Positions 39,601-40,533 of a stretch of 64,000 nt of DNA are shown one piece after another. Below the pieces are notes generated by a model. It saw only the letters and a list, made by a program, of their open reading frames with translations. It was not told the DNA's origin and did not search any database. The position numbers were made by a program, and so were the translations under genes. The stretch comes from Heloderma charlesbogerti (lineage: Eukaryota; Chordata; Lepidosauria; Squamata; Helodermatidae), in the NCBI GenBank assembly GCA_026122225.1, contig JANEZZ010001949.1:62001-126000 (forward strand). Direction: 5' to 3'. Positions within the stretch are counted from its first letter, which is position 1; each line of letters starts with the position of its first letter.

Positions 39601-40533
39601 TAGGGATGGACGAAAGTCCCTTACCTGTTCTCGAAGCTTGCTTCGCGGTGGGGGGGAGGCGCTTCGGTTCTCCCCCTGAAGTTCAGGCGAGGGGGGGGAG
39701 GCACCCCACCTCGCACGGCTGAAATTCAGGCCGGGTAGGAGCGCCCCGTCTACCCGGCCGCAAAAAAAAAAGTAAACACTCACACACACACCCGTGATAG
39801 GCTACGTAACGATTTACGTAGCCTATCATGGCTAGATTTCCAAAGTCAGCCATGATAGGCTATGTAAATTGTCGCATAGCCTATCAGGGGTGACTTTGGG
39901 AAAAAAAAAAAAAAGCACGTACGCAAATGGCAGCTCCCATGGGGACCGCCATTTGCGTTCCTTATTTTGACACATCTAGTCTACGTAAAGATTTACGTAG
40001 ACTACGGCGAAAATAAGGGCAACGCAAATAGCGTTCCCTTATTTTCGCCGTAGTCTACGTAAATCTTTACGTATACTAGACGTGCCAAAATAAGGAACGC
40101 AAATGGCGGCGCCCATGGGCTGCTGCCATTTGCGTATGCGCTTTTTTCTTTCTTTCTTTCAAAGTCACCCGTGATAGGCTACGTGATGATTTACGTAGCC
40201 TATCACGGCTGACTTTGGAAATCTAGCCGTGATAGGCTACGTAAATCATTACGTAGCCTATCACAGGTGTGTTGTTGTTTTTTTACTTTACTTTTTTTTT
40301 TGCAATGGTGGTGGCGGCAGTTGGTCAGGAGACCGGCCGCCGCCCCCGCCCCTGACGAACTGCTGCCGAACCGCCGCCGGGACCCGCCGCCGAGAGGGAT
40401 ATTCGGCCACGGTAAGTCCCATCCCAGGGGGGGGCGGGGGGCCGGCAGAGAATTTCCCCACCAATTTCGGGGGGCCGAATGCGTTGGTATTCAGCCTCCC
40501 GAAGATTCGTGGAGAAATTCTCCGCCATCCCTA
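39601..40533 (-). mobile_element. palindromic hAT MITE, copy J
   Basis: The ends TAGGGATGGACGAAAG and TCCGCCATCCCTA are flanked by CGCTCAAT (39593-39600) and CACTCAAT (40534-40541), 7 of 8 identical. From 39792 to 40264 the core is one large palindrome centred at 40028 (AACGCAAATAGCGTT, 40021-40035). It is composed of seven TACGT-type units and smaller GCAAAT units that mirror each other on both sides. Excising it restores the BovB frame (LRSICQQIW). Confidence 0.93.

Follow-up and report, generated by a model that had tools for sequence, protein, structure and literature searches.

At positions 39601-40533 the window, which is the whole stretch of 64,000 nucleotides analysed here (Heloderma charlesbogerti, contig JANEZZ010001949.1), carries a complete element, copy J, whose core is a large mirror palindrome composed of smaller palindromes. 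Two kinds of small palindrome build the ten cores of this type in the window, T units (GTGATAGGCTACGT...ACGTAGCCTATCAC; variants T' and T'') and G units (GCAAATGGC...GCCATTTGC; short variant G'). The features of copy J are the following, none with an assigned strand.

39601..40533, complete hAT-like element, presumably non-autonomous, with target site duplication (TSD) CGCTCAAT/CACTCAAT
39760..40303, whole mirror palindrome including A/T runs
39792..39889, left outer T-palindrome pair (GTGATAGGCTACGT...) with an asymmetric linker
39921..39959, left G palindrome (GCAAATGGC type)
39975..40006, left T' palindrome (TAGTCTACGT type)
40021..40035, central short G' palindrome, spanning the mirror centre at 40028
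40049..40080, right T' palindrome
40097..40135, right G palindrome, mirroring the left G
40166..40264, right outer T-palindrome pair, mirroring the left pair including its linker

Alignment of the stretch 39780-40280 showed that copy J is mirrored over at least 39782-40275 with 91% identity. Comparison of the core with its own reverse complement placed the centre at 40028, exactly where the first-pass annotation had put it. That annotation also described palindromes built of palindromes in which TACGT-type (T) and GCAAAT-type (G) units alternate. The nesting is borne out, but the alternation is not strict in J, where the nine-unit core reads T T G T' G' T' G T T and the central GCAAAT unit is the short variant. 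Outside 39760..40303 the left and right terminal flanks are unlike each other. We rejected a foldback element in the strict sense, as the mirror stops at 39760/40303 whereas the element ends, within these unlike flanks, at 39601/40533. The sequence adjoining copy J at window positions 39200-39440 appears to resemble a BovB-type LINE, which would point to a reptile or ruminant host.

The other copies in the window, again without assigned strand, are listed below.

3234..3551 (limits of the array, not element ends), copy A, T' and G' array, centre 3339.5
4795..5475, copy B, I type in opposite orientation, TSD CTTACTTA, centre 5095
7002..7897, copy C, TSD CGCATGAC, mirror 7307-7650, centre 7478.5 on a T'' palindrome
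17348..18815, copy D, TSD TTTATGGT/TTTATGAT, centre 17633, split by copy E
17918..18746, copy E within D, TSD CTCCGGGG, mirror 18101-18497, centre 18295 on a T' palindrome
27844..28348, copy F, TSD GTTTTAAC, G-T-G core 28031-28185, centre 28108
40685..41590, copy K, TSD GGTTATAC/GGTTATGC, mirror 40975-41326, centre 41153
53848..54571, copy I, TSD TGGACAGA/GGGACAGA, local T-G-T mirror, centre 54276, left T unit expanded
54860..55359 (ends read from the flanks), copy L, F type, G-T-G core, centre 55121.5

The nine midpoints that had earlier been computed by hand (B, C, D, E, F, I, J, K and L) were all recovered to within 1 nt, and copy A, centred at 3339.5, adds a tenth mirrored core. Mirrors are only partial in A, B, D and I, that of copy I being the T-G-T stretch at 54210-54342. 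The insertion of E into D (17348-18815) is a direct record of their relative age. By eye, the motif ACTTACC lies close to the left end in six of nine window copies (B, C, D, E, I and K) and GGTAAGT close to the right end in five of nine (B, C, E, J and K); these are candidate subterminal transposase sites and are also splice-donor-like. Other hairpins, with CAGTCAGAA-type arms unlike the hAT-like family, occur near positions 57583 and 61645.

Copies were gathered from the 2.30-Gb genome assembly (3246 contigs). A first look returned between 3771 (J core) and 16140 (K) unconfirmed candidates per query, for each of which the best 40, ranked by similarity to the window copy, were scored. Of the 39 listed beside each window copy, we fetched 39 for J, 29 for C, 36 for I, 39 for F, 37 for K and 20 for E. 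The fetched stretches with copies number 201. Dropped before counting were L027, identical to L026, and second matches on contigs C770, C793, C1107, C3181 and C3096 whose score equalled that of the first. L026 (contig C3032) and L027 (contig C1067) do not differ at any of their 1670 bases, which points to duplicated assembly or a recent duplication. The equal-score matches on C770, C793, C1107 and C3096 lie on opposite strands of the contig, a pattern that inverted duplications of great length, or fold-backs in the assembly, would produce. At C2174:1189654-1190869 a K-type copy has its left half partly repeated in direct tandem.

The earlier assignment of the family to the hAT superfamily holds in the form of a hAT-like affiliation, to which the 8-bp TSDs lend support. 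With the best end-motif pair taken for each copy, duplications matching at 7 or more of 8 bases flank 111 of 143 copies (J 24/38, C 24/30, I 28/36, F 35/39), and none was found at any of four shifted offsets. hAT elements prefer targets of the form nTnnnnAn and have short terminal inverted repeats that start like TAGGG. Position 2 of the duplications is T in 52 of 95 cases and position 7 is A in 43, a preference and not an absolute rule, and this bias fits hAT. The consensuses of C, F and I terminate in TAGGGATG...CATCCCTA or CACCCCTA, which has the hAT terminal-repeat form, and the ends of the copies are these or close variants. Complete window copies measure ~500-933 bp and, with many copies in homogeneous subfamilies, the family is MITE-like. 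A search for the T-unit pattern in viral and prokaryote collections gave 0 matches.

Subfamily consensuses were built from 14-41 copies each, that of I from 14 of the 36 fetched and that of F from 41. Mean divergence of copies from their consensus is 0.133 for F, the most diverged of the six tested subfamilies, 0.083 for I, 0.074 for C, 0.070 for K, 0.038 for E and 0.034 for J. The F core has three units and that of J nine, while C, K and E have seven each in the mirrored part; a trend in which older subfamilies have fewer units is at most suggestive.

Chance does not explain the mirror. Self-mirror scores range from 138 to 709 in the ten cores, and no score above 42 came from 100 base shuffles of each core. 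Because a row of palindromic units is symmetric by construction, we examined the parts that are asymmetric. In the C consensus (30 copies) each G unit with its flanks is identical to its mirror partner (1.00) and scores 0.63-0.73 against itself reversed or against other units. In J the outer T units are 0.97 identical to their mirror partners and the G units 0.91. The T' units of C, at 0.92 to their mirror partner and 0.92 and 0.82 to themselves reversed, do not by themselves decide whether the symmetry is trivial. Linkers that contain no palindrome of their own are also mirrored in the subfamily consensuses. The trivial reading is rejected for linkers and G units, which are mirrored although asymmetric. 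Arms of the consensuses mismatch, gaps uncounted, at 5 of 91 paired columns in F, 2 of 186 in K, 6 of 198 in C, 7 of 230 in J and 6 of 221 in E; the I mirror is poorer (11 of 98). As five of the six consensus cores are near-perfect mirrors, the founders were already symmetric. Flipping of the core relative to the flanks was also considered for J-type copies and discarded, since core and left flank point the same way at every one of the 39 J loci retrieved (38 of which are distinct), all chosen by similarity to J.

We then compared arms between subfamilies. Arms are 0.97 identical within J, 0.98 within E and 0.90-0.91 between the two, with 10 of the differing columns symmetric and 11 asymmetric. 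For J and C the values are 0.935 within J, 0.98 within C and 0.79-0.85 between, with 9 symmetric and 7 asymmetric columns. In one 88-nt arm segment the J right arm is as close to the C left arm (0.93) as to the J left arm (0.93). Arms of one subfamily are thus mostly more alike than arms across subfamilies, a pattern suggestive of concerted evolution. On a tree of F copies built from flanks only, a single clade can include copies with a change on one arm and copies with it on both, examples being the clade that unites Lwin, L129 and L117 (bootstrap 80) and another, larger one (96). A two-armed change also recurs in separate clades, which could reflect exchange between copies or repeated mutation, and the one-armed states could be reversals.

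Transfer between arms was assessed by counting transversions present at both mirror positions of one copy, with arms permuted among copies as the control. Transversions were used because they avoid most CpG decay. In the final table A/T runs of five or more were masked, since in K and C these runs raised observed and expected counts alike (before masking, K gave 16 versus 7.2 expected, with slid controls at 2-5, and C gave 8 versus 6.1). In F (n=41) we found 36 mirrored transversions versus 8.1 expected, with a maximum of 17 in 5000 permutations, which keep relatedness, and 0-2 in slid controls; the 36 represent 13 distinct changes at 11 site pairs. The result of an earlier test with 21 copies held with 41, and the excess was stable under three alignments. 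When only rare changes were counted there were 10 versus 0.8 expected (permutation maximum 5), and strictly private mirrored changes numbered 3 versus 0.2, with a permutation maximum also of 3.

The excess in F is specific to the mirror. G units compared across the mirror centre gave 32 versus 7.3 expected, and the central T unit, whose local mirror is also the global one, gave 4 versus 0.8. Within single G hairpins, where transversions are fewer, the counts were 1 versus 0.3 and 0 versus 0.03; G compared with G in direct orientation gave 0 versus 0.3 and a left-flank hairpin control 0 versus 0.02. K showed 7 mirrored transversions versus 1.6 expected (permutation maximum 7, P 0.0004, slid controls 0-1). 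There was no significant excess in C (2 versus 0.7, P 0.12), J (1 versus 0.7) or E (1 versus 0.4), and I, with few transversions, gave 0 versus 0. An excess that fits transfer between arms, be it within one element or through exchange between copies, is therefore shown in two of the six tested subfamilies, in F and, more weakly, in K. Correction after insertion was considered for J and rejected: a test of all substitutions was flat, with 26 mirrored versus 23.6 expected from 238 and 257 arm changes.

These copies belong to a hAT-like family with a core of nested mirror palindromes, in two of whose six tested subfamilies mirrored base changes exceed chance. We consider the likely cause to be copying from one arm to the other while a lineage is still transposing. 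The placing of the transfer in such lineages follows from the lack of a significant excess in J, E and C, and is itself a step that we infer. The same data bear on ordinary gene conversion between arms at a chromosomal site, independent of transposition, as in sex-chromosome palindromes. The arms are near-identical inverted repeats, and such conversion is reported for large palindromes (PMC3723533, PMC8981503). Against this, J, E and C copies, which lie 3.4-7.4% off their consensus, carry no significant transfer since insertion, so that the steady rate that conversion at the site would produce is not seen; we regard it as an unlikely source of the pattern. C and I are about as old as K or older, and they show no significant excess although K has one.

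Rearranged copies show how units move. We mapped the order of linkers in 38 I-type rows (36 fetched copies plus window copies I and B) and found a relocated or inverted linker in three, L086, L089 and L099; a two-strand linker match in L079 was set aside as a near-palindrome in the probe. In L086, which has an 8/8 TSD, ~119 nt of the left linker-G-linker-T block, inverted, replaces the right inner block, and the inner joint falls within a T palindrome. This block is identical to the consensus at 113 of 119 positions and to the copy's own left block at 109 of 119; as its own left block is not the closest sequence, it may derive from this copy or from a different one. In L089 a single linker behind a T unit is inverted, and L099 carries a direct copy of that linker, a direct relocation. 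The commonest length variants of I copies are whole G-T units in steps of ~115 nt with unchanged flanks: nine of 36 copies have one more unit and two of 36 (L103 and L104) have none. Lengths run from 586 bp without the unit (L103) through ~742 bp for the base form and 822-920 bp with one more unit to 1193 bp in L101. Palindromic units seem to act as switch points in both orientations.

Several I-type copies carry other features. In window copy I a T unit at 54172-54240 is enlarged within its own loop by short TAAGTATTTACGTA-like repeats, and such loop expansion is also seen in L076 and L091 (reverse strand); it amounts to small-scale growth of the same kind. In the second part of L102 (reverse strand) E-type sequence follows a shortened I-type array, and in the second part of L101 (reverse strand) F-type sequence lies beside an I-type copy, neighbours that may mark insertion hotspots or simple density.

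The whole-unit steps and the direct linker copy in L099 are what slippage of units would give, in which unequal exchange or replication slippage between T and G direct repeats alters the arrays and palindrome arrays look symmetric anyway. Slippage alone makes no inverted copies like those in L086 and L089, and in four consensuses (C, J, K and E) the mirror extends to asymmetric linkers and G variants. Moreover, the mirrored transversions of F cross the centre and do not appear in direct orientation, which contradicts slippage as a full account. As the sole process it is therefore improbable; as a second process, beside copying between arms, it is likely. The first-pass annotation had proposed growth by repeated inverted duplication. 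Its inverted copying is upheld by the transversions of F and K and by L086 and L089, but repeated doubling is not: the doubling tree is unsupported, as the J architecture, common to 39 distinct aligned J-type copies among the best-scoring J matches, is already present in their consensus, and the commonest changes in I are the whole-unit steps described above.

The annotation had further proposed folding single strands. With RNA parameters the C consensus core folds at -397.8 kcal/mol versus -119.0 (sd 5.9) for 20 base shuffles, and both C consensus flanks also fold better than their shuffles. Such stability would suit selection for a folded RNA or cruciform, in which compensatory changes keep the arms complementary and no copying takes place, but this is very improbable, given that compensation would be due in the easiest local hairpins, where the two G hairpins of F, with their few transversions, yielded the low counts reported above, and that mirrored changes in J are as numerous as permuted arms predict.

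Copying between arms could proceed by hairpin-primed synthesis or by gene conversion, which the present data do not tell apart. We propose that template switching would occur during DNA synthesis tied to transposition, either in gap repair after excision or as a nascent strand folds back. A strand reaching a T or G palindrome might re-anneal in either orientation, and since these palindromes read alike both ways they would offer it landing pads. Annealing in the inverted sense would either overwrite an arm with its partner or create a new mirror arm, and annealing in the direct sense would lead to the gain or loss of units; the primer may be a folded strand, a cruciform or a gap-repair intermediate. 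The shift of centres between subfamilies with similar outer units, from T' in E to T'' in C and to G' in both J and K, fits template switching. A further-reaching version, which we put forward tentatively as possible rather than probable, is that of a transposon with a built-in mirror-copy engine: its small core palindromes would serve as fold-back points, and movement would rewrite one half from the other, correct it, extend it and found subfamilies with a new centre.

The closest described behaviour that we found is that of Galileo, a Foldback-like element of the P superfamily in Drosophila, whose inverted repeats, in the accessible text, grow and shrink and contain tandem units, and whose authors discuss one inverted repeat being copied into the place of the other, recruiting inner sequence (PMC3573991). 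As far as that text goes, Galileo shares with the window family changing inverted repeats and proposed repeat copying, but its repeats are terminal and its superfamily is another; in the hAT-like family the mirror is internal and of two levels, and transfer is measured site by site. In yeast, fold-back templated inversions produce short inverted duplications at microhomology beside a break, according to the part of the report that was available (PMC11724301). Those events are mostly 5-34 bp in repair assays, as described there, whereas the transposon lineages studied here show inversion of a piece of ~120 nt and involve arms in their full length. Sex-chromosome palindromes, as portrayed in the accessible passages, resemble the hAT-like family in having two near-identical mirror arms that copying keeps alike, but they are large single loci, while the arms here are ~90-240 nt long and belong to a dispersed element.

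Among hAT elements Tol2 has inner inverted repeats, and for Angel, a family of palindromic miniature elements in zebrafish, a hairpin origin has been proposed; both have inverted repeats of a single level, in contrast to the palindromes of palindromes seen here. No hAT element of this build was found in the titles and abstract openings listed from the open-access literature. Nor did searches of open-access text turn up a description of a hAT-like element that combines an internal palindrome of two levels with evidence of mirror transfer at individual sites. Many dated copies log, site by site, whether and when DNA crossed the mirror, and they make countable an old question, namely whether symmetry arises through fold-back or gap-repair synthesis in transposition or through later recombination. 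The hAT-like family would also be a clear case of a transposon in which a mutation was duplicated onto the mirror arm before the element spread.
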